From Oceanobacillus iheyensis HTE831 (GTDB lineage: Bacteria; Bacillota; Bacilli; Bacillales; Amphibacillaceae), in contig NC_004193.1 in NCBI RefSeq assembly GCF_000011245.1, forward strand, positions 3,016,501 to 3,080,500: 64,000 bases of DNA, read 5' to 3'. Numbering within the stretch: the stretch's first letter is position 1; the number at the start of each line of letters is the position of its first letter. The position numbers and the translations under genes are program-made. The notes beneath the pieces were generated by a model. The model saw only the letters and a program-made list of their open reading frames with translations, had not been told where the DNA came from and ran no database searches. Below, in pieces: positions 47,673 to 58,382 of this stretch.

Positions 47673-48503
47673 TTACGAGCGAATTTGATTGACTAGTCCC
47701 ATCATTTGATCGCCCATTGTAATTGTACGTGAATTAAATTGATACAATCGTTGTGTCATTAATAAATCTGACATTTCTTTAGAAATATCTACATTTGATT
47801 GTTCCAATGCTTTAGATTGTAAAATCGCAGTTTGCGGATTCGTTTCTTGAATGATCTCTTCTGCATTAAATCCTAGTGCTTCTAAATTGGGTAGTTGAAA
47901 TAAATTCTGACCGGTTGATTCTAATAAACGTGGGCGAATTGCTTCAACGACCGAAAGCTGATCTTCTATTGCTTGTTGTCCATTACGCTCAACTAGCAGT
48001 TGACCATATTCATTTATTTCAATGGAATCAAAACCATCTTGTATTAAAATCGGGCCGTTATTACCGATAACTGGATTACCATCCGATGTCGAGAGCATCA
48101 TTTGACCATTCTCCATTGGACTGAGATAAAACGATCCATCACGAGTATAACGTGTTCCAACCTGTCCATTTTCGGTTACTTCAACTTGGAATAATAGGTT
48201 TTCACTTGTTAATGCTACATCAAGATCTCGATTTGTTTCTTGAATAGCTCCTTGATTCAGATTCATATTCGTAGAACCCAGTCTTGACCCTGAACCCACA
48301 CGAATACCATCTGGAGTTAATCGACCTTGTGCATTAGCCGGATCCGTTAAATTATTCACCTGTTGTGTAAGTAAGGATGAAAATTCAGCTTGTCTACTTT
48401 TATAGCCAGTAGTTTGGCTATTTGCCATATTATTACCAATTAAATCAAGCTTATTTTGCAATTGATTCATTGTAACAGCAGCCTGTATCATCATTTGTGA
48501 CAT
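47673..48503 (-). CDS. flhP: Flagellar hook-basal body rod-type protein FlhP
   Basis: This 276-residue protein of the FlgG/FlgF rod family has an N-terminal coiled segment with NQLQNKLDLIGNNMANSQTTGYKSRQ and a C-terminal helix with ALEQSNVDISKEMSDLLMTQRLYQFNSRTI, both diagnostic of rod and hook proteins that polymerise through terminal coiled coils. Length and position after flhO match B. subtilis FlhP. It should form the distal rod of the flagellum. Start: ATG with GGAGGG upstream. It follows flhO by 21 bases. Confidence 0.93.
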   Translation of the reverse strand: MSQMMIQAAVTMNQLQNKLDLIGNNMANSQTTGYKSRQAEFSSLLTQQVNNLTDPANAQGRLTPDGIRVGSGSRLGSTNMNLNQGAIQETNRDLDVALTSENLLFQVEVTENGQVGTRYTRDGSFYLSPMENGQMMLSTSDGNPVIGNNGPILIQDGFDSIEINEYGQLLVERNGQQAIEDQLSVVEAIRPRLLESTGQNLFQLPNLEALGFNAEEIIQETNPQTAILQSKALEQSNVDISKEMSDLLMTQRLYQFNSRTITMGDQMMGLVNQIRS

Positions 48504-48524
48504 CGTTTATATCCCTCCAGAACC

Positions 48525-49334
48525 TTATCCAAGACGACCTATTTCATTTACTGTTTTTCCTAAACTTTCATCATATGCACGTAAAACACGTTGGTTTGTT
48601 TCAAATAATCGGTACGCATTCATCATGTCTGTCATTGTTTGCATGGTATTCACATTTGATTGTTCTAAAGCACCTTGTTGCAATGAAAATGTCGCAGCAG
48701 CTGGTACATCTATTGATTCTCCTGCAAATAAATCATTTCCTTCTTTTACAAGCTGATTCGAATCTTCCACATAGCGAATACCTAATGGGAACGTACCATC
48801 TGCTGTCTGAACAAAACCTTCTGGTGTTACAACATAATCTAAACCATTTGTCTGAATCGGGTTGCCTGCTTCATCAAGAACATAATTTCCTTGATTGGTT
48901 ACAAGAAAGCCTTCTCCATCAACAGTAAAATTACCATTACGTGTGAGTCTTTCTTCGCCATTCTCGTTTTGAACAGAAAAGAATAGAAATCCATTTTCAT
49001 CAGGAACTTGTCCTTGAATTATTGCTACGTCTGTAGATAATCCAGTCTCCTGAACATCACCTTGAGCAAAGTTAGGTACAGTTTCTTGAACATAGACCCC
49101 CGTATTGATCGGACCAATCGTCTGACTTATCGGGAAGTTCATTCCACCTTGTGATGTTGGAATTTGACTACTGGAACCTGTCTGTTGCAATAATAGTTCT
49201 GGAAATGCTCGGATAGTTGTTTGATCTGCTTTATATCCAGGAGTATTCGCATTTGCGATATTATTCGATAGTGATTCTTGCTGCCGTTGTTGTGTAATCA
49301 TACCACTGGCAGCTGTATATAAACCTCTTAACAT
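48525..49334 (-). CDS. flhO: Flagellar hook-basal body rod-type protein FlhO
   Basis: This protein of about 269 residues belongs to the FlgG/FlgF family. It has MLRGLYTAASGMITQQRQQES and LSNNIANANTPGYKADQ at the N-terminus and GALEQSNVNTMQTMTDMMNA near the C-terminus. I use the ATG at 49334, eight bases after GGGAG; a TTG six codons upstream is unlikely. It follows mbl and precedes flhP, the B. subtilis order. It probably forms the proximal rod of the flagellar basal body. Confidence 0.93.
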   Translation of the reverse strand: MLRGLYTAASGMITQQRQQESLSNNIANANTPGYKADQTTIRAFPELLLQQTGSSSQIPTSQGGMNFPISQTIGPINTGVYVQETVPNFAQGDVQETGLSTDVAIIQGQVPDENGFLFFSVQNENGEERLTRNGNFTVDGEGFLVTNQGNYVLDEAGNPIQTNGLDYVVTPEGFVQTADGTFPLGIRYVEDSNQLVKEGNDLFAGESIDVPAAATFSLQQGALEQSNVNTMQTMTDMMNAYRLFETNQRVLRAYDESLGKTVNEIGRLG

Positions 49335-49402
49335 GGTATTCTCTCCCGTCAATTTAGAAAGTACATACTTATTTCTAATTTCGGTATGAACGGTCGAAAC
49401 GT

Positions 49403-50404
49403 TTAGCTAATATTTCGTTTTTCTACTTTATCAATATTTTCTAGCATAATGCCTGTACCTTTGGCTACACAATCCATTGGATCTTCAGCGATGAACACAG
49501 GAACTTTTAATTCTTCTGCTAGTAATTGATCAATTCCATGAAGTAATGCTCCTCCACCAGTCAAGATTACCCCTCTGTCTATAATATCAGCAGACAACTC
49601 TGGTGGTGTGCGTTCTAATACTGATTTTGCAGCTTGGACAATTAAAGATACAGATTCGCCTAAAGCAGATTGTATTTCTTCAGACCCAATAGAGATAGTT
49701 CTTGGAAGACCTGATACCATATCTCTTCCTCGAATATCCATGGATTCGTTACGTGAATTTTTAAAAACGGTAGCAACATTTATTTTGATCTCTTCTGCTG
49801 TACGTTCTCCAATTAATAATTTGTATTTCTTCTTAATGTATTGCATAATTTCTATATCAAACTTGTCACCGGCCATTTTAATTGATTCAGAAGTAACGAT
49901 GCCTCCCATAGAAAGTACGGCTACATCGGTCGTACCTCCACCAATATCCACTACCATGTTTCCGCTCGGTTGATAAATTTCCATTCCTGCACCAATGGCA
50001 GCTACTTTTGGTTCTTCTTCTAGATAAACTTTTTTACCGCCAGATTTTTCAGCTGCTTCCTTAATCGCTTTTTGCTCAACTTTTGTAATATTCGTCGGAC
50101 AGCAAATAAGCATTCTAGGTTTAGATAGAACACCTTTGACATTAATCTTATTTATAAAATGCTTCAGCATAGCTTCTGTTACATCAAAGTCTGCGATTAC
50201 ACCGTCTTTCAAGGGGCGAAGCGCTTCGATATTTCCTGGTGTACGTCCAACCATTCTTCTCGCGTCTTCACCAACCTCAAGTACTTTACCAGTATTGCGG
50301 TCCATCGCTACGACAGATGGTTCATTAAGAACAATTCCCTTACCTTTTACATGAATCAATACATTGGCAGTACCAAGGTCGATTCCAATATCTCTGGAAA
50401 ACAT
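49403..50404 (-). CDS. mbl: MreB-like cell-shape protein Mbl
   Basis: This 333-residue bacterial actin guides lateral wall synthesis. It has phosphate-1 IGIDLGTANVLIHVKGKG, phosphate-2 MVVDIGGGTTDVAVLSMGG and the adenosine motif GVILTGGGALLHGI. MDCVAKGTGIMLENI at the C-terminus is typical of Mbl. Position between spoIIID and flhO is the B. subtilis order. Start: ATG with TAGGAGG eight bases upstream. A SigA promoter about 55 bases upstream allows expression independent of spoIIID. Confidence 0.96.
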   Translation of the reverse strand: MFSRDIGIDLGTANVLIHVKGKGIVLNEPSVVAMDRNTGKVLEVGEDARRMVGRTPGNIEALRPLKDGVIADFDVTEAMLKHFINKINVKGVLSKPRMLICCPTNITKVEQKAIKEAAEKSGGKKVYLEEEPKVAAIGAGMEIYQPSGNMVVDIGGGTTDVAVLSMGGIVTSESIKMAGDKFDIEIMQYIKKKYKLLIGERTAEEIKINVATVFKNSRNESMDIRGRDMVSGLPRTISIGSEEIQSALGESVSLIVQAAKSVLERTPPELSADIIDRGVILTGGGALLHGIDQLLAEELKVPVFIAEDPMDCVAKGTGIMLENIDKVEKRNIS

Positions 50405-50460
50405 GAATCAAAATCCTCCTAGCGTTACAATCTTGCACCGTCCGAAGACATAATGCTACT

Positions 50461-50490
50461 ATTATAATATTTTACCACAAAAATCCACAA
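50461..50490 (-). promoter_or_regulatory. SigA promoter of mbl
   Basis: On the minus strand TTGTGG (50485-50490) and a perfect TATAAT (50461-50466) are separated by 18 bases. A long-lived vegetative promoter here fits the separate terminator of spoIIID upstream. Confidence 0.55.
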
Positions 50491-50551
50491 TTAACTGCAT
50501 ATTGATTAATATTTTGTCTAAAAAGTAGGAGAGATGGTGTATTGAGCAATA

Positions 50552-50598
50552 AAGAAAAACAGTAGGTTGACCTATATAACGTCATTTTACCTACTGTT
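50552..50598 (-). terminator. Terminator of spoIIID
   Basis: AACAGTAGGT and ACCTACTGTT (10-bp perfect arms at 50558-50567 and 50589-50598) with a 21-base loop are followed by TTTCTTT on the minus strand, about 60 bases after the spoIIID stop. Confidence 0.75.
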
Positions 50599-50660
50599 TA
50601 TAAATGAAATTGGATCTTATGGATTATTCTTTGTACACACTCCTTTCTTAAGTAAATACC

Positions 50661-50945
50661 TTATCCTGCTGGCTTCTTCTCTGTCTCTAACGGCTTACCA
50701 TCAATTTTATATTTTTGTCTAGTGGCCTCACCCCCACGCAGGTGTCGAATTGCTTTATGATATTCAAGTATTTCTTTCACTTGAATCGCTAACTCAGGAT
50801 TGATTTCTGGTAATCGTTCGGTAAGGTCTTTATGAACTGTACTTTTTGAAACACCGAACTCTTTTGCGATTGTTCGGACGGTTTTTCTTGTTTCTACGAC
50901 ATGTCTTCCTATCCTGATTGTTCTCTCTTTGATGTAATCATGCAC
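50661..50945 (-). CDS. spoIIID: Sporulation transcriptional regulator SpoIIID
   Basis: This 94-residue DNA-binding protein activates or represses SigE-dependent genes in the mother cell. The helix-turn-helix is VRTIAKEFGVSKSTVHKDL, followed by the basic C-terminal region GGEATRQKYK that contacts DNA in SpoIIID. Length matches the family. Start: ATG (50945) with GGGAGGCG upstream. A SigE-like promoter lies about 80 bases before it. Confidence 0.96.
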   Translation of the reverse strand: MHDYIKERTIRIGRHVVETRKTVRTIAKEFGVSKSTVHKDLTERLPEINPELAIQVKEILEYHKAIRHLRGGEATRQKYKIDGKPLETEKKPAG

Positions 50946-51024
50946 ACCGTTCGCCTCCCTAAGTTGTAATTCCGAGGTGTAATTTGAGACAGGGTGTTAT
51001 ACGTTGTTATGTTTGTCTAAATAG

Positions 51025-51052
51025 AAAAGTATGCTAAATAGATCGGATATGT
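51025..51052 (-). promoter_or_regulatory. Possible SigE promoter of spoIIID
   Basis: On the minus strand ACATATC (51046-51052) and CATACTTTT (51025-51033), 12 bases apart, resemble SigE -35 and -10 elements (ATATT and CATACA-T). Known SigE control of spoIIID supports this. The gap 50946-51161 holds no other supported feature. Confidence 0.4.
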
Positions 51053-51161
51053 AGCTGCTTGAAAAATATAAGTAGCCCAATGTTCCTTGTGGAGCAAGAA
51101 GTAGACAACGCAAGCTCTCACCTCAGAAAGTTCGATTGCATGGTTTGTAACATTTTATTAC

Positions 51162-51374
51162 TTAAGGCTGGTATTTATGATTAATTTTGAACAATTCAGA
51201 ATTTGGACAGGGTGTTTTTTTCCATATCATGGCTAATGACAAATTTCTATTACAAATACTGCTTATATTTATGCGAAAACTTAGACTCCGATGAATGAAT
51301 TCTTTTTGGGTATAAATAACAAAAAACCAAACTATCATCGGCACAGACCAGATCATAATTTGGTTACTCTTCAT
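51162..51374 (-). CDS. Candidate small peptide gene directly after the AimR-like gene
   Basis: This 70-codon frame starts at an ATG one base after the AimR-like stop codon; a GGAGG lies 15 bases before it inside the preceding gene. The product begins with MKSNQ and a hydrophobic stretch (IMIWSVPMIVWFFVIYT), as in a signal peptide, followed by a basic region (KEFIHRSLSFRIN) and a polar C-terminus with two Cys. Phage aimP genes occupy exactly this position and encode short secreted pre-peptides of about 40-60 residues. The C-terminus here does not look like known hexapeptides, and the frame could be chance. Low confidence. Confidence 0.35.
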   Translation of the reverse strand: MKSNQIMIWSVPMIVWFFVIYTQKEFIHRSLSFRINISSICNRNLSLAMIWKKTPCPNSELFKINHKYQP

Positions 51375-51375
51375 T

Positions 51376-52389
51376 TTATAAATCGAGTGCCTCCAACGGC
51401 AATCGGCTATAGAAAAAATCATTATTATTTAAAATAAACTCATTATAAGATTGAATTAATATATCCTTATCTTGTTTCGCTAAACCAAGATAATATCGTT
51501 GAAGTGGTGTTTCGATACGGACGGTTTCTAAAAGATCCAATGCTTTATCATAGTCACCTCTTGCGACCTCAAGATGGGCTTGTTCTGCTTTATCCATAGA
51601 TTGTACTTCATCTACTTTCTTAAACTTGCCTGAAAGTAACGGGATAAAATTATTCTCAACTCGATGCTTGTACAATCTAATGTTATGTTTTTGGGAAATT
51701 TGTTGCGCTTTTTTCAAATGATACATACCTTTTTCATAAGTATCGAAGGTATAGGATAACCCAAGGTGACTATGGATGGCAGCCTCAAGTAGGATACTTT
51801 CATTTATATTTAAAGCTTTATACGCATATTTTCTTGCAATAATCAATTCATTTCTTGCCATATGAAAAACAGTGTAAAATCGATAGATACGCACTTTAAA
51901 AAAGTTGACTAAAATGCGTTCTTTTACCTCGTCTAAGTGTGTTTCATATGTAGCGATAAGGTCTCCGAGTCTTCTATAATTTCTTTTATAATAGAAGCAT
52001 GTTTCTCTTATTAACTTTATTAATAATGTAATTTCAGGTTCTTTTATCGTGTATCGAGTTTTGAAATAGTCTAAGTAGTGAAGCGTTTTATCAGGGGATG
52101 TGTGCTGATTAAATAAATCAATCATAAGCCTATATATATTACCCCAAAGCCTATTAGAAGGGTTAATTGATTCACGATTTTTTTCTATTAGCTGATCTAA
52201 CTCACGAAAATATGCATTCATGTAGAGGTATTCCATTCCTGTCTTCTGAATTTCGCTAGACGGGCTATTTAAACAAATCGATTTCATTATATCCCTTGCA
52301 ACAGTTAAATCATATTCATGGTAAACTCTTGAAGCAATATCGGTCAACGAGTCTTCTGTATGAGATTCCATCAAATTCGTGAGGATCAC
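51376..52389 (-). CDS. AimR-like peptide receptor (TPR region only, no DNA-binding domain)
   Basis: This 337-residue all-helical protein aligns by eye with the TPR part of AimR, the arbitrium receptor of Bacillus phages. Matching stretches are EITLLIKLIRETCFYYKRNYRRLGDLI (positions about 117-143), LLEAAIHSHLGLSYTFDTYEKG, DKALDLLETV and the C-terminus DFFYSRLPLEALDL. AimR proteins are about 380-400 residues and begin with a DNA-binding helix-turn-helix. Here that part (about 45-60 residues) is absent, and an in-frame TGA stands nine bases before the GTG start, so no extension is possible. AAAAGGA precedes the GTG. No phage gene is near; it sits between spoIIQ and spoIIID. It may have become a Rap-like protein-binding regulator. 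Function unknown. Confidence 0.75.
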   Translation of the reverse strand: MILTNLMESHTEDSLTDIASRVYHEYDLTVARDIMKSICLNSPSSEIQKTGMEYLYMNAYFRELDQLIEKNRESINPSNRLWGNIYRLMIDLFNQHTSPDKTLHYLDYFKTRYTIKEPEITLLIKLIRETCFYYKRNYRRLGDLIATYETHLDEVKERILVNFFKVRIYRFYTVFHMARNELIIARKYAYKALNINESILLEAAIHSHLGLSYTFDTYEKGMYHLKKAQQISQKHNIRLYKHRVENNFIPLLSGKFKKVDEVQSMDKAEQAHLEVARGDYDKALDLLETVRIETPLQRYYLGLAKQDKDILIQSYNEFILNNNDFFYSRLPLEALDL

Positions 52390-52730
52390 TTCGCTTCATC
52401 CTTTTCCTTTTTAGGGAAAATTCCCTCTATTTTTAAAACAATACTATCTTACCACAAATATTTATAAAAAAAATAATATATCGTTCGACAATTTATGCAG
52501 AATCATTGATACATAGGAACAAAGTCTGGGAGTTTTCGAATATATCCTCCATGAACTGGCAATAATACCCTCTTCAAAAGAAATAGCCTTAACGAGAGAG
52601 GTAAAGTGAGGATAAACTGCTGTACGTAACAATCAATAAACAAAAGCGCAAGCGTCCGCCTGCTATAGAAATCAAACCGCACGACAATCGGGATCATATA
52701 CCAATGTGAATAATGAAATTGATTCACACA
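52390..52730. other. Gap upstream of the AimR-like gene with a repeat fragment
   Basis: No reading frame here is convincing. On the minus strand TGGTAAGAT (an extended -10) lies about 70 bases before the AimR-like start, and a GGGAA/TTCCC hairpin follows it. Bases 52642-52655 (AAAAGCGCAAGCGT) match the arm of the three-way element at 35545-35620, but the second arm is missing. Confidence 0.45.
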
Positions 52731-52760
52731 TAAAAAAAAGAGCCTGATAGAAATCAGGCC
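52731..52760 (-). terminator. Terminator of spoIIQ
   Basis: GCCTGAT pairs with ATCAGGC around a four-base loop, followed by eight T on the minus strand, nine bases past the spoIIQ stop codon. Confidence 0.93.
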
Positions 52761-52768
52761 CTCATCTA

Positions 52769-53620
52769 TTATTCTTCAGTATTTTCTTCTGATTCTGGCT
52801 CTTCATCTGTATTTGATTCTGAATCAGAATCTTCTTCTACAGGTTGTTCCCCAGCATTATCTTCTTGTTCTACTTCATTAGAAGATTCTTCACTTGATTC
52901 ATCTGTTTCGCCTTCTTCGGTTACTGCAGAGTCTTCTTCTACATTTGCAAGACTACTAACTGGTTGATTAAAGTAACTTTCTGGATTTAATTCCGCACCA
53001 GATTTACGGATTTCAAAATGGACATGTGTTCCATTATCTTTTCCAAAAATATTTTTACCAGCTGTACCTAGCTTGTCTCCTTGAGTAAGCTTGTCTCCTG
53101 CTGAAACGGAAACTTCTTCAAGACTAGCATAATACGTTTTGATGTCTTCATCATGGGCTAGTACAACAACATTACCTAACAATGGATCTTCTTTTACTTC
53201 TTCTACAGTACCACTGATCGCTGCAAGTACTTCAAATGTCTCTGCATTTGCTGCTGCAATATCTACACCAGTACTTTGATAGTATCGATTATTATATAGT
53301 ACTAGTGCGTTTTGACGATCTTCTTGATCTGCGTCGTAGTCAAAAAATTTAGTTACGATTTCTGCTTCTTCTGCATTTGCTACTGGCATTGCGATTACTT
53401 CTTGTTGATCTAATACTGGTTCTGCATCTTCATCGTTCATTACTGGAGTGTAATGATCTTCTGCAGATCTTTCTTCCGCTGTATCAGAATCAATATTTTG
53501 ATACCAGACTACGGCGGTTAATAAAACTGCTGCAATGGTTAAATACAGTGCTGGGAAAAACCACTTCTTACGGAAAATTTGGCGCCATTTATTTTTTGGC
53601 CCTTTGAATTCCTCATTCAT
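52769..53620 (-). CDS. spoIIQ: Stage II sporulation protein SpoIIQ
   Basis: This 283-residue forespore membrane protein binds SpoIIIAH across the intermembrane space to hold the engulfment channel together. It has a basic cytoplasmic start, one helix (FFPALYLTIAAVLLTAVVW), and a degenerate LytM/M23 domain (about 110-220). The zinc-ligand His of the first motif is Ser (YYQSTGVDIAAA), as in SpoIIQ, while THVHFEIRKSG remains. An acidic tail of about 55 residues (SEESSNEVEQEDN...) follows. spoIID lies upstream. SpoIIQ is SigF-controlled in B. subtilis; I found no clear SigF promoter. Start: ATG with AGAGGTG upstream. Confidence 0.94.
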   Translation of the reverse strand: MNEEFKGPKNKWRQIFRKKWFFPALYLTIAAVLLTAVVWYQNIDSDTAEERSAEDHYTPVMNDEDAEPVLDQQEVIAMPVANAEEAEIVTKFFDYDADQEDRQNALVLYNNRYYQSTGVDIAAANAETFEVLAAISGTVEEVKEDPLLGNVVVLAHDEDIKTYYASLEEVSVSAGDKLTQGDKLGTAGKNIFGKDNGTHVHFEIRKSGAELNPESYFNQPVSSLANVEEDSAVTEEGETDESSEESSNEVEQEDNAGEQPVEEDSDSESNTDEEPESEENTEE

Positions 53621-53843
53621 TTTTCATCACCTCTGCAACCATTGTGAGCAGAAAAATCAAAATATATACATACAGAGGGAAAAAATTTAAAATTTTGTGG
53701 ATGATTTAAATAATTTTGGGTAAAGTAAATGGTTACATCCCTGTTTATCCATACATTTCAAGAGTTTTATAGTTTTTATACAAAAAGGATAATTTCAAAG
53801 ATAAAATTCGTACATGTTTTATAAGTATTGAACGATCGGACAA

Positions 53844-53876
53844 GAAAAAACCCCTCGTCTCACCTTGAAACGAGGG
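53844..53876 (-). terminator. Terminator overlapping the 3' end of spoIID
   Basis: CCCTCGT and ACGAGGG pair around a loop that contains the spoIID stop codon, followed by GTTTTTTC on the minus strand. The last codons of spoIID form one arm. Confidence 0.88.
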
Positions 53877-55047
53877 TTGGTGCTGTTTCATCTACAGAAT
53901 TTATTTCAACATCCTTATAATAATAATGGATGATATCTTCATATGTTTTTCCTTCTTTTGCCATTCCATTGGCACCATATTGACTCATTCCAATACCGTG
54001 TCCAAACCCTTCTGTTGTAAATACTAAATGATTATTCTTTTGTTCTACCGTAAAATCGCTTGATAGAAGGTCTAGCTCTTCACGAACAATTCTTCCTGAG
54101 ATTGTCTTTCCGGCTATAACTAAGTTTTTCACTCTGCCACTTTCTGTTCGTGTTATTTCCATTGGTACTGCTTGATCTTCAGCTAATTCCACATCTAATG
54201 CACTTGAAACTTCTTCAAGTGTAAACATAGATTGACTGGTGTATTTTGGAGATTCTTCTTTATCCCATGGACTTTCCACACTTCTTAAGTAGGATACTTC
54301 CGTTTCCCAATAATCTTCTGAGTTCTCCGTATATCCATTACTTGTTGAGAAAAAGGCGGCAGTAATTGGAGCATCATTATGCGTGATGATTTGTCCCTTT
54401 GTTTCTTTTACCGCACTATTTATTTTATTCATATTTTCTTCATACTTATCTTTCCATAATTCCTTTAATTCATTTGGGCTTTTATACACTTGATGGTTTA
54501 CAGTGTCGGTTAGATCATACGGATTATTATCTTTCCCATGTAGTAATAGATTCACTGTAAATGTTCTGGCAGCTACTGCTTGAGCTTTTAAAGCCTCTAA
54601 TTCAAATTCAGTGGGCATCTCGGATGCGACTACTCCGGCGACATATTCTTCTAAAGGTACATCCTCAACCGTCTCTTGTTTGTCTCGCATGACCGCCACT
54701 GAAAAAGGAGAACCACCTACCTCGACGACTTCTTGTTCTGTATCCTGAGCAGCTGCTTGATTTTCTTTAGCTTGTGAGTATGTTTCGCTATTATCTTTGG
54801 AGAGGTTGACGACAGTAGCAGGCACAACAAGGATAAATAAGATAAGGATACCAAAAAAACTGAGCATCGTTAATCTCCAAGGCACAGGTGATTTATTTTG
54901 GAAGTATCGTGATTTTCGATTACGGAAAGGCACAATTTTTTTCAGACCTGGTTCTTGATGGCTGGCATATGGTTGTTTTTTTTGTTTGAGCATCATAATT
55001 TTCTTTTGGATAGATGGTTTTCTTCTTTTTATATACTTTTTTTGCAC
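53860..55047 (-). CDS. spoIID: Stage II sporulation protein D (SpoIID)
   Basis: This 395-residue lytic transglycosylase is needed for engulfment; it degrades septal glycan with SpoIIP and SpoIIM. The membrane helix (LSFFGILILFILVVPATVV) is at about 61-80, followed by the SpoIID domain with PLEEYVAGVVASEMP (catalytic Glu), ALKAQAVAARTF, AAFFSTSNGYTENS and FGHGIGMSQYGANGMA. The cytoplasmic part before the helix is about 60 basic residues (KKYIKRRKPSIQKK), longer than the short lead in B. subtilis SpoIID. Start: GTG with AAAGGAGGG upstream. spoIIQ follows by about 240 bases. Confidence 0.95.
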   Translation of the reverse strand: MQKKYIKRRKPSIQKKIMMLKQKKQPYASHQEPGLKKIVPFRNRKSRYFQNKSPVPWRLTMLSFFGILILFILVVPATVVNLSKDNSETYSQAKENQAAAQDTEQEVVEVGGSPFSVAVMRDKQETVEDVPLEEYVAGVVASEMPTEFELEALKAQAVAARTFTVNLLLHGKDNNPYDLTDTVNHQVYKSPNELKELWKDKYEENMNKINSAVKETKGQIITHNDAPITAAFFSTSNGYTENSEDYWETEVSYLRSVESPWDKEESPKYTSQSMFTLEEVSSALDVELAEDQAVPMEITRTESGRVKNLVIAGKTISGRIVREELDLLSSDFTVEQKNNHLVFTTEGFGHGIGMSQYGANGMAKEGKTYEDIIHYYYKDVEINSVDETAPTLVSR

Positions 55048-55074
55048 AGCTTCCCTCCTTTGCCAATAAGGTCT

Positions 55075-55091
55075 GATGCTAATCTAGCATC
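55075..55091. promoter_or_regulatory. Small palindrome upstream of spoIID
   Basis: GATGCTA and TAGCATC form a perfect 7-bp inverted repeat with a three-base centre, about 28 bases before the spoIID start. This position suits an operator or an mRNA hairpin. The rest of the gap 55092-55241 shows no SigE promoter I can support. Confidence 0.3.
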
Positions 55092-55241
55092 CCTACTAAT
55101 AAATCTATACAGTCACTCGAAAAAATAGACCTTAAATTTAGCTAAGAAGAAAAACTTCATTTTCCTGTAACATTTATATATAGAATATAGCAAAAATATA
55201 AATTATCCCCAGCACACAAATTTAATCATTATTAATGCAAC

Positions 55242-55278
55242 AAAAAACTAGCCCCGTTCAGATCAAGAACAGAACTAG
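55242..55278 (-). terminator. Terminator of the dpp-ykf operon
   Basis: On the minus strand CTAGTTCTGTTC pairs with GAACGGGGCTAG (12 pairs with G-U wobbles), followed by TTTTTT. It lies just after the last gene of the operon. Confidence 0.87.
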
Positions 55279-55290
55279 TATCATAGCGAT

Positions 55291-56313
55291 TTAACGAATA
55301 GCCCCTTCTTTCAATTGTGGGCCTGTATGAGGACTATTCTCCTTTGACTTATCGTACAGATGACAGGCAACATAATGACCTTTTTCCACTTCTTGCCACA
55401 CAGGACGATCGCTTGCACATACTTCCATCGCCATCGGGCATCGTGTTCGAAACACACAACCACTTGGAGGATGAATCGGACTTGGTAGCTCTCCTTCTAA
55501 TATAATACGTTCCCGCTGATCCTCGATATCCGGATCGGGAATAGGTATCGCTGATAACAATGCCTTCGTATATGGATGTAAAGGATTATCATATAAATGT
55601 TCACTTTGAGTTTCTTCCACCATATTGCCCAAATACATAACCCCAATCCGATCTGAAAACTGTTTTACCATCGATAAATCATGGGCAATAAATAAAAACG
55701 TCAATCCTTTTTCTTGTTGCAACCGCTTCATAAGGTTAACTACCTGTGCTTGTACGGAAACATCGAGTGCTGAAATAGGCTCATCTGCAATTATAAACTC
55801 TGGATCTAACGCGAGGGCTCGAGCTATACCAATTCGTTGCCGCTGTCCACCACTAAATTCATGAGGATAACGATTGGCATGATCCCTGTTCAAGCCTACC
55901 TCTTCTAACAATTCATATACACGTTGTAATCTCTCTTTTTTAGTTGAATATAAGTTATGCACTTCCATCGGTTCAGATATTATCTCTTTAATCGTAGAAC
56001 GAGGATTTAAGGATGCATATGGATCTTGAAAGATCATTTGCATTTTACGATAAAAAGAAAAACGTTCTTTTTCACTCAGTTCGTGTACATTTTCATGATC
56101 AAAAATAACTTCTCCATCTGTCTTATTATATAGACCAAGAATGGTTCTTCCAATCGTTGATTTACCACAGCCTGATTCCCCAACGAGCCCATAGGTTTCC
56201 CCTGGTTTTACATGAAAAGTGATATCATCAACTGCTTTTAATAAACTTCCCTTGCCAACTTGAAAATACTTTTTTAAGTTACGAACTTCTAGAATATGAT
56301 CTTGCATTCTCAA
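55291..56313 (-). CDS. ykfD: Peptide ABC transporter ATPase, OppF/DppF type
   Basis: This 340-residue ATPase has Walker [10 protein letters not shown], signature [16 protein letters not shown], Walker [10 protein letters not shown] and switch FIAHD. The C-terminal Cys-rich region [14 protein letters not shown], typical of OppD/OppF, coordinates an iron-sulfur or structural site. It is the last gene of the operon, nine bases after ykfC, the place of ykfD in B. subtilis. It should pair with DppD as the second ATPase of the dipeptide/murein peptide importer. An ATG two codons downstream is possible. Confidence 0.93.
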
Positions 56314-56322
56314 CCCTCCTAT

Positions 56323-57252
56323 TTACCAATATCTTCGTGCTGCACATAATTCTTTTTCATATTTGGTTCCTTCTAATGGAGTGATTTCGATTCCTTTACC
56401 TGTTTGTGGTGAATGTAACATTTCACCATTTCCTTTATATATTCCTACATGATGAATATTTCCTTTTCCTTCTTCATAGGCAAAAAACAGTAAATCTCCA
56501 GCTTGTACCTCATCAAACGGTATTTCTTTTCCACCGACTGCTTGATCACCTGCATCTCTGGCGATCCAATATCCATTCGCCTTATGAGCCGCATAAGCCA
56601 GACCGGAACAATCGTAGCCAAAAGAGCTCATTCCTCCCCAGAAATAATCTAATTGTAAAAATAGCATTCCGGTTCGAACGATGTCCTCTCCAGTTCGAGT
56701 AGGTACTCCTTCCTTTGTAGGAAAAATAAGTACATCTTCTTTAGCTATATATTGTATACCATGTGGAGTTTGCACTTGTATCATCTCTTGTTCAGTTACT
56801 ACAGGTAGAATGGTTGCAAAGCTAATTTCAAGTGTTTTTTCACCTTCTTGGGTTTCTAACCAACTCTTGTTTTTTATAACCATCGCCATAGAATCTCTTA
56901 CCCAATGTGTTTTCGTTGTCATGGTTAATTGTTGCTTTGGCACCCAGCCAGGATATCCTCTTTTATCTTTCTTCGAAGCTTGAAATGGCAAGATAACTTC
57001 CGCCCAATCATCTAATTCATTAATTACTATAACTGGTTCGCCATATAATGCTTGTGTTTGTACTCTATTTTCATTACAAAGCGCTAATCGTTCATCATAG
57101 GAAAGTTGCTCATACCATTGATTTACATTTGTCGGATTCGTTCGCCCATCTTTATCTATATCCCTGGCCGACTGTGGATTCGTCCATACTGTTGCCACTT
57201 GTACATCGGTCACCCAAAAATCTTCGGATAATTGATCAAACGTTTGTTTCAT
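56323..57252 (-). CDS. ykfC: Gamma-D-glutamyl-L-diamino-acid endopeptidase, YkfC-like
   Basis: This 309-residue protein has two SH3-like domains (about 1-175) followed by an NlpC/P60 cysteine peptidase. The catalytic Cys is in SFGYDCSGLAYAAHKANG, the His in IHHVGIYKGNGEMLHS. No signal peptide, so it works in the cytoplasm on imported peptides. YkfC removes L-Ala-D-Glu from wall-derived tri- and tetrapeptides. It sits between ykfB, which epimerises the released dipeptide, and ykfD. Start: ATG with TGGGGGAGCT upstream. Confidence 0.93.
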   Translation of the reverse strand: MKQTFDQLSEDFWVTDVQVATVWTNPQSARDIDKDGRTNPTNVNQWYEQLSYDERLALCNENRVQTQALYGEPVIVINELDDWAEVILPFQASKKDKRGYPGWVPKQQLTMTTKTHWVRDSMAMVIKNKSWLETQEGEKTLEISFATILPVVTEQEMIQVQTPHGIQYIAKEDVLIFPTKEGVPTRTGEDIVRTGMLFLQLDYFWGGMSSFGYDCSGLAYAAHKANGYWIARDAGDQAVGGKEIPFDEVQAGDLLFFAYEEGKGNIHHVGIYKGNGEMLHSPQTGKGIEITPLEGTKYEKELCAARRYW

Positions 57253-57275
57253 ATTTCAGCTCCCCCATTCTGAAA

Positions 57276-58382
57276 TTATTTCATTGTGTTTTGTCTCAAA
57301 AACTCAGAGCGAATTCCGCAGATTCCTAATCCATAATCCTCACTAAAAGATAGATGACTTCCTTTATAAATTACTCCACCATGGACCAAATCTCCTGATA
57401 GCATTAGCGGGGCATCGAAATCAAACCTTGTGACAACTGGATGACTTGCAGCAAAATGAGCAGCCGCACTAATTCCTAGTTTCGTTTCTATCATGCTACC
57501 AACCATACATTCTATTCCATAGCTTTGCGCTAAAGTTGCTATTTTTCTAGCTTGATGGATTCCACCTGATTTCATTAATTTGATGTTAATTAGATCAGCT
57601 GCCTTATTTTCTAGAACTTGTCTTGCATCGTGGATAGAGAATACCGCTTCATCTGCCATGATTGGAGTTTCTGTTCGATCGGTTACAAACTTTAATCCTT
57701 CTAAATCTTTGGCTATAACTGGTTGTTCAACAAGCTCAATATTTAGTTGCAGATCTTCCATTTTCTGAATTACCTTAACAGCTTCTTTGGGGTTCCAACC
57801 CTGGTTCGCATCGAGTCGAATACGAACTTCATTTCCTACTGATTGACGAATCGCTTTGATTCGTTCCATATCTGTTTCAATTTGATCTTTGCCAACCTTT
57901 ACCTTCAATATCGAGAATCCATTTAATTTATATTGGTTCGCATCTCTTACCATTTCTTCCACAGTATTTACACTGACGGTATAATCCGTTTCAATTTCCG
58001 AATGGTATCCTCCTAAATACTGATAAAGTGGTAGTTTTGCATATTGTGCTAATAAGTCATAAATCGCCATATCAACAGCTGCTTTGGCACTCGTATTACC
58101 AATCATACATGCTTGCAGTTGTTCAAAAATACGTTCATAAGTCGACAATGAATTTCCAATTAAAAATGGTTTGATCACATGATGAATAGCGTATTCAATA
58201 CTTGCGAGACTCTCTCCTGTTATAACATGGGTAGGAGGAGCTTCTCCCCACCCTACATAACCATCTTCGCTTGTTATTTTGACGATAATGGATTCAGCTA
58301 CTGTTACGGTACGTAATGCTGTTTTAAATGGAGTGTGTAATGGCACAGATCCTATAAAGGTTTCTACACTTGTTATCTTCAT
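57276..58382 (-). CDS. ykfB: L-Ala-D/L-Glu epimerase
   Basis: This 368-residue protein of the enolase superfamily converts L-Ala-D-Glu to L-Ala-L-Glu. It has the general-base segment ILKVKVGKDQIETD (Lys-x-Lys), the metal ligands Asp/Glu/Asp in RLDANQGWNP, ELVEQPV and IMADEAV, and the opposite Lys in LINIKLMKSGG. The N-terminal capping domain begins ITSVETFIGSVPLHTPFKTA. It matches B. subtilis YkfB. It lies 13 bases after ykfA and 23 before ykfC. Confidence 0.95.
   Translation of the reverse strand: MKITSVETFIGSVPLHTPFKTALRTVTVAESIIVKITSEDGYVGWGEAPPTHVITGESLASIEYAIHHVIKPFLIGNSLSTYERIFEQLQACMIGNTSAKAAVDMAIYDLLAQYAKLPLYQYLGGYHSEIETDYTVSVNTVEEMVRDANQYKLNGFSILKVKVGKDQIETDMERIKAIRQSVGNEVRIRLDANQGWNPKEAVKVIQKMEDLQLNIELVEQPVIAKDLEGLKFVTDRTETPIMADEAVFSIHDARQVLENKAADLINIKLMKSGGIHQARKIATLAQSYGIECMVGSMIETKLGISAAAHFAASHPVVTRFDFDAPLMLSGDLVHGGVIYKGSHLSFSEDYGLGICGIRSEFLRQNTMK

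Follow-up and report, generated by a model that had tools for sequence, protein, structure and literature searches.

AimRL at the sporulation locus

The window analysed here is a stretch of 64,000 nucleotides of Oceanobacillus iheyensis HTE831 (contig NC_004193.1), in which the sporulation genes spoIID, spoIIQ and spoIIID lie close to mbl. Between spoIIQ and spoIIID is a gene whose product we call AimRL, our own name for this 337-aa protein of the AimR clade without a helix-turn-helix (HTH). The features of the locus are collected in Table 1.

Table 1. Genes and sequence elements around AimRL, in positions of the window.
Feature	Position	Strand	Basis
mbl	49403..50404	minus	PF06723
spoIIID, downstream neighbour	50661..50945	minus	PF12116, 1.1e-40
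Probable intrinsic terminator directly 3' of the AimRL stop, at the place of the propeptide in relatives	51321..51364	minus	hairpin
AimRL, HTH-less AimR-clade TPR receptor gene	51376..52389	minus	337 aa, GTG start
In-frame TGA stop, nine bases 5' of the AimRL GTG	52396..52398	minus	sequence (TGA AGC GAA)
Shine-Dalgarno-like AAAAGGA 5' of the AimRL GTG	52399..52405	minus	sequence; inference
Extended -10-like element TGGTAAGAT, 29 nt downstream of the box	52446..52454	minus	predicted
TTGTCGAACGAT containing a perfect Spo0A box TGTCGAA (52484-52490)	52480..52491	minus	sequence
Terminator-like hairpin ending spoIIQ	52738..52763	minus	consensus match only
spoIIQ, upstream neighbour, M23 peptidase	52769..53620	minus	PF01551; name from type and place
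spoIID	53860..55047	minus	PF08486

Profile searches placed AimRL in the AimR family. The Pfam model AimR (PF22871) matched residues 33-335 (E = 1.1e-63), the NCBIfam model lysogeny_AimR (NF038310) was matched over positions 41-365 of 365 (1.2e-52), and phrog_1728, a PHROG of transcriptional regulators, was matched from profile position 54 (5.4e-51). The best match among solved phage AimRs was that of SPbeta (1.5e-11, aligned from SPbeta residue 63), with an identity of about 24%. These matches are far above chance and bear out the AimR-family TPR homology along most of the protein that the initial annotation had proposed. Used as a control, SPbeta YopK matched NF038310 from position 1, whereas AimRL matched it only from 41; judged from this comparison, the part of the profile missing from AimRL is the HTH, and its absence, noted earlier, is genuine. 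The in-frame TGA that had been cited against an N-terminal extension is likewise present, at 52398-52396. The C-terminal RLPLEAL segment also aligns with AimR, as had been stated, but it had gone unremarked that the helix following it, the capping or dimer helix at YopK 380-386, is missing from AimRL as well; a gap is found there in 111-127 of 135 aligned rows. This capping helix has been reported as needed for AimR dimerisation (PMC6340889). The part of AimRL ahead of the AimR domain is no longer than about 30 residues, and no match to the Rap three-helix bundle (PF18801) was found in the protein (E up to 10, within HMMER's filters). AimRL is the sole AimR match in its own genome.

The nine neighbours of the gene that were scanned are flagellar, mbl, spoIIID, M23 peptidase/spoIIQ, spoIID, peptide-ABC, NlpC/P60 and epimerase genes. 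None of them (47673-58382) matched a phage family in Pfam, in agreement with the initial annotation, which had placed the gene outside any visible phage. The same annotation had described it as interrupting an otherwise conserved spoIID-spoIIQ-spoIIID-mbl order. Within its own family (f1), however, spoIIQ-AimRL-spoIIID proved to be the usual order, and AimRL can be considered part of it, since a copy adjoins spoIIQ and/or spoIIID in 83 of the 87 f1 genomes with loci read (own genome included; 125 f1 genomes match in all). Both flanks lie within the stretch in 78 of these 83 genomes. As for the four exceptions, G013, G026 and G028 have a further, unfetched copy and G119 has a single copy elsewhere. 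In family f36 the gene is at the sporulation locus in two of eight genomes, and the f2 and f7 copies read sit elsewhere. Of nine AimRL-less genomes of the Oceanobacillus group (g1), seven have both spoIIQ and spoIIID in the stretch, their matches separated by about 340-700 bp, and spoIIID is retained in 15 of the 16 AimRL-less genomes tested. Duplicate loci (L003, L010, L015, L123, L129, L132, L135 and L138) were dropped from the locus, 0A-box and pocket-residue counts.

A few further observations concern the arrangement of the region. Ahead of spoIIID lies a conserved noncoding block, TAATCATAAA .. TAATAAAATG .. TCTGAGGTGAGAGCTTGYGT (51108-51183, minus strand), found in 60 of the 82 loci with spoIIID. 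Its core, TCTGnGGTGAGAG, is absent from the stretches of nine AimRL-less g1 genomes and present in two AimRL-less g18 genomes. No consensus fold and no Rfam match supported it as a structured RNA, and Rfam gave no match anywhere at the AimRL locus. In L064 (G083:C4) the order is spoIID-spoIIQ-AimRL-spoIIQ-AimRL-spoIIID-mbl with two identical AimRL frames, which reflects either a tandem duplication or an assembly artefact. One f36 genome carries a four-copy AimRL array (L124, G407:C1:3628200-3641200), and several f36 genomes have five or six AimR matches each. Beside spoIID in the window, genes for a peptide ABC transporter ATPase, a YkfC-type NlpC/P60 protein and an enolase-superfamily protein (55291-58382, minus strand) form what looks like a muropeptide uptake operon.

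Distribution and clade

Searching 5.8 billion proteins brought up 39 relatives, 318-361 aa long; those carrying a name belong to Oceanobacillus, Virgibacillus and Lentibacillus. When divergent members served as queries, 38 relatives were obtained, with Pontibacillus, Aquibacillus, Sediminibacillus, Gracilibacillus, Terribacillus, Amphibacillus, Ornithinibacillus and Oceanobacillus as named genera. At the genome level, an AimR match was found in 125 of 159 f1 genomes (best E 3.5e-60 or lower), in 56 of 299 genomes of an order-level sample, weak HTH-type hits being counted too, and at E 1e-20 or better in 9 of 398 genomes of a class-level sample. Strong matches (E below 1e-50) also occur in families f2, f7 and f36 of the order. 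The gene is absent from 9 of the 28 g1 genomes and is thus dispensable.

The initial annotation had named a full-length DNA-binding protein in close relatives as the sign of a recent truncation. No such orthologues were found among close relatives: 144 of the 151 extracted frames (136 distinct) have a stop-to-stop length under 380 aa. Five of the seven longer frames match NF038310 only from position 26-51; L043 (f36), an ambiguous case, matches it from position 9, and L062 (f22) bears an HTH (NF038310 from 7; HTH_24 7e-4). Comparison of AimRL with L063, a relative of 90% identity, gave dN 0.050, dS 0.557 and a dN/dS of about 0.09, and the window copy is under purifying selection. A recent truncation or a pseudogene can thus be ruled out, because the relatives are equally short and the gene is maintained by selection.

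In a tree of 113 rows, 88 representative AimRL frames group together in a single clade with an SH-aLRT support of 99; L062 and 24 further AimRs fall outside it. The tree is unrooted; 89 of its rows were thinned by identity from the 136 distinct frames, the window copy included, and the partial frames of L154 were omitted. L062 had been labelled HTH-less by our filter and is the sole row so labelled outside the clade. Among the rows labelled HTH outside the clade, 23 of 24 were scanned (the second L170 frame excepted), and in 18 of these the match to NF038310 begins no later than position 18. The remaining five (L163, L165, L168, L171 and L174) match it only from 33-67 and seemingly lack the HTH part, and HTH loss is therefore not unique to the AimRL clade; it may have taken place more than once among AimR relatives. 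For the AimRL clade itself we infer a single loss at its base. On the evidence of these comparisons the clade represents a long-standing chromosomal gene, present in at least four families of the order.

Spo0A box and downstream propeptide

According to PMC3485338, the core of the 0A box reads TGTCGAA. Among 85 loci, 73, that of the window being one of them, have an exact copy of it upstream of AimRL, oriented as the gene is, against a mean of 1.3 and a maximum of 6 in mononucleotide shuffles. With TGNCGAA accepted on either strand the number is 80 (shuffle mean 6.8, maximum 14). An extended -10 (TGnTANNNT) follows 28 or 29 nt after the box in 58 of the 73 loci, and such a -10 is present at 15-45 nt from 65 of 102 box-like sites (shuffles: 9.1 on average, 17 at most). 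A consensus promoter scan requiring a -35 hexamer found no site at the proposed AimRL promoter and five sites regionally, compared with 7.5 in shuffles. Copies outside the sporulation locus carry the box in 6 of 16 cases in f1 and in none of 40 in f2, f7 and f36; other AimR frames carry it in 3 of 26. In g1 genomes without AimRL, seven spoIIQ-spoIIID intervals are complete, and all of them lack TGTCGAA. It occurs elsewhere in two of nine AimRL-less stretches, namely inside spoIIID (L182) and between spoIIID and mbl on the other strand (L183).

Spo0A is encoded in the own genome, and AimRL is a putative direct Spo0A target with a core 0A box near its predicted promoter. Activation is suggested by the position of the box upstream of the -10; 0A boxes can also repress, and those at spo0A have mainly repressive effects according to PMC12090719. 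The hairpin closing spoIIQ suggests that AimRL may have its own transcript.

The 12-mer TTGTCGAACGAT occurs three times in the own genome. At L191 (G000:C1 near 2015798) a TTGTCGAACGAT site lies beside the DnaA-box-like TTATCCACA, upstream of a HAD-type ORF, with no other same-strand ORF of at least 30 aa starting within 400 nt downstream. We take this ORF to be similar to yqeG and its surroundings to be reminiscent of the sda region.

Downstream of AimRL, a signal-bearing short ORF with [DNG]PxxG was found in 49 of 85 related sporulation-locus copies, which represent 84 loci, one being counted twice; L003, L010, L015 and the window copy (L034) are omitted from this count. In place of SignalP, signals were called with criteria of our own, namely a basic N-terminus and a cut-off for hydrophobicity. 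The same scan gave 0 of 85 on reverse strands, 1 of 1700 in dinucleotide shuffles, which served here in place of the mononucleotide shuffles used for the 0A box, and 0 of 84 in upstream stretches. A Shine-Dalgarno-like sequence precedes 43 of the 49 propeptide ORFs. The DPxxG motif is C-terminal, with D, P and G fixed over the 49; position 4 is mostly L or Y, position 6 mostly D or E, position 7 mostly I, L, V or M and position 8 mostly D or G. In some propeptides the unit is repeated two to five times, e.g., DPNLGDID in L017, DPVMGDLD in L020 and DPGYGDIF in L028. These propeptides fit a report of a DPG motif in the peptides belonging to AimR and to one subfamily in Paenibacillaceae (PMC12700828). 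The other 36 copies have no recognisable propeptide.

Outside the sporulation locus, the strict motif lies beside 11 of 51 distinct frames (L062 included), a recount that replaces an earlier tally of 15/63 containing duplicates, and variants such as DPGDSGVG are found beside some other copies. Among the f7 copies outside the sporulation locus (L132-L140), some propeptides repeat DPGDPGMG or DPGDSGVG. A chromosomal subfamily of Alkalihalobacilli, which might correspond to these copies, is named in PMC12700828.

In the window no recognisable propeptide was found directly downstream of AimRL, where the hairpin at 51321-51364 (-17.7 kcal/mol, z -5.6) is followed by a U run. A terminator scan with a GC requirement did not list it, as only hairpins with three or more G-C pairs and a short loop qualify there. 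L063 has a similar hairpin 95 nt past the receptor stop and no motif-bearing ORF. An 86-aa ORF of the window (51162-51422) was considered as a propeptide and judged spurious, as it crosses the strong hairpin and the U run. The propeptide is missing at the locus in 16 of the 19 AimRL-bearing g1 genomes, the window included. It is present in the other three (L023, L026 and L068), which makes its loss the likely history in the window lineage. Three degenerate propeptide patterns run over the own genome gave 0, 6 and 6 hits at 11 places, none in a signal-bearing short ORF; such patterns would miss a diverged or relocated peptide. A candidate frame of 81 aa between stops, at L194, contains DPGLGKID and lacks a clear signal.

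With a terminator-like hairpin in place of the propeptide while receptor and Spo0A box persist, the window AimRL is, as far as its sequence can tell, an orphan receptor without a recognisable propeptide. Equivalents of the YopK pocket residues E300, H303, D360 and F362 are retained in it, while N202, N206, N239 and R228 are not conserved. L251 of the window protein stands at YopK position 276, where 133 of 135 rows have F.

Probable function and alternatives

The closest known system is AimR-AimP arbitrium of SPbeta and phi3T (PF22871, NF038310), with which AimRL shares a homologous TPR receptor (residues 33-335) and the four conserved pocket residues and, in many relatives, a signal-bearing propeptide just downstream, as in yopK-yopL. 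It differs in the missing HTH and C-terminal dimer helix, in its chromosomal place at the sporulation locus with a Spo0A box upstream, and in the DPxxG peptides of its relatives, as against GMPRGA. Rap-Phr of Bacillus offers a second parallel, namely an RRNPPA receptor without HTH, linked to sporulation and presumed to bind proteins. AimRL, however, matches AimR models and not Rap, lacks the three-helix bundle, has DPxxG peptides in its relatives and keeps a fixed place beside spoIIID. Chromosomal AimR-family proteins, often without a propeptide, have been described as putative eavesdroppers (PMC9765709), in a paper that also records AimR and NprR for Virgibacillus; the available part of that paper makes no mention of a sporulation-locus clade, a DPxxG propeptide or a Spo0A box. 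Its statement that Rap is the only RRNPPA member without HTH is contradicted by the HTH-less AimRL proteins. Also chromosomal and near AimR are the RRNPP_detector subfamilies and clan C (AimR, AloR, subfamilies 08 and 21), where a DPG motif is given for the AimR and subfamily 08 peptides (PMC10075063, PMC12700828). Oceanobacillus, Virgibacillus, Halobacillus and Lentibacillus are absent from the main text of PMC10075063, whose unnamed clusters may overlap the clade.

Taking these data together, we consider it fairly probable that AimRL belongs to a Spo0A-controlled chromosomal pheromone receptor module of the AimR clade, without HTH and acting by protein binding, and that the window copy is its orphaned form. 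AimRL would be the receptor half of a peptide-pheromone module of halophilic and halotolerant Bacillaceae, placed between spoIIQ and spoIIID and controlled by Spo0A~P via the box upstream of the extended -10 promoter. By analogy with Phr and AimP, the propeptide of the relatives would be exported by its signal, trimmed to a peptide of the type DPxxG[DE]x[DG] and re-imported. Binding of this peptide in the TPR groove would alter the grip of the receptor on a protein partner, and cell density would thereby tune sporulation or another Spo0A-dependent fate. Without an HTH, AimRL most likely exerts its effect by binding a protein, in the manner of Rap, and the partner could be a phosphorelay protein or the product of a neighbouring gene. 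The orphan of the window would either listen to the DPxxG peptides of neighbours or work without a ligand. The peptide-sensing, Rap-like role without DNA binding that the initial annotation had suggested in connection with sporulation is thus supported by the propeptides (49/85) and the upstream Spo0A box.

Other explanations have to be weighed against this one. It is conceivable, although we regard it as rather unlikely, that the Oceanobacillus receptor is an eavesdropper only, detecting DPxxG peptides of other Bacillaceae or of mobile elements without any self-signalling. The missing propeptide in 16 of 19 g1 genomes, the 12 pattern hits at 11 places without a signal-bearing DPxxG short ORF and the purifying selection on the receptor would all agree with this, as would the share of putative eavesdroppers, almost 90%, that PMC9765709 gives for chromosomal AimR systems outside prophages. 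However, a diverged or relocated propeptide would have escaped the patterns, and the change to L251 could mean that the ligand has been lost. The same substitution, at a position that is F in nearly all rows, and the failure to find a propeptide could also be read as signs of a Spo0A-regulated, protein-binding TPR scaffold in which peptide sensing is gone, but the equivalents of E300, H303, D360 and F362 are all kept, and such a ligand-free adaptor seems distinctly unlikely.

The origin of the gene and its relation to Rap raise two further possibilities. The initial annotation had suggested a captured phage receptor; an ancestor of these genera would have acquired a phage AimR in its chromosome, and the HTH and dimer helix would have been lost from it. 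Those members of the AimR family that have been characterised are phage receptors, and the relatives found in phage and plasmid collections are AimRs of phages (5 records) and plasmids (3 records). Yet the clade is large and chromosomal, extends over at least four families and has about 24% identity to SPbeta AimR, and none of the nine neighbours is phage-like. PMC12700828, moreover, makes the case that phage AimR was recruited from an ancestral receptor which Paenibacillaceae share. Because the tree is unrooted, host-to-phage and phage-to-host transfer are both compatible with it; the capture is thus not supported, and we think it unlikely. A Rap-like phosphorelay phosphatase, taking the place of Rap in a family mostly without it, appears improbable. 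Of 156 family genomes, just 13 gave a match to the Rap N-domain (PF18801), the own genome gave none, and the Spo0A box would suit such a function, but AimRL has no three-helix-bundle match, the part ahead of its AimR domain is short (about 30 residues), and ten g36 genomes carry a Rap N-domain together with AimRL, so that a simple replacement of Rap is not supported. AimRL may work like Rap without being one.

In the open-licence literature, as covered by titles and abstract starts, the AimRL clade is not described, and the supplements of PMC10075063 and PMC12700828 may contain parts of it as unnamed clusters. Many AimRL relatives are annotated by NCBI as "AimR family lysis-lysogeny pheromone receptor", a name that is misleading for these host genes and obscures what seems to be a quorum-sensing module of the host, integrated into sporulation in a family with few Rap N-domains. 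Since concrete peptides (DPxxGDxD) and a concrete regulator (Spo0A) are predicted, density control of sporulation outside Bacillus becomes testable, and the Oceanobacillus AimRL provides a natural orphan lineage for tests of eavesdropping. The large chromosomal clade also offers material for asking whether phage arbitrium descends from a host dormancy signal or is itself the source of one. Going further, we tentatively consider that AimRL might constitute a second, Rap-independent sporulation switch of the RRNPPA type without HTH, with DPxxGDxD pheromones and a Spo0A feedback loop, established at the sporulation locus throughout a bacterial family, in which Oceanobacillus has shed its signal and listens to its neighbours. 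If this were true, phage arbitrium would be related to a system that couples sporulation to cell density, and each of the two would decide on dormancy.
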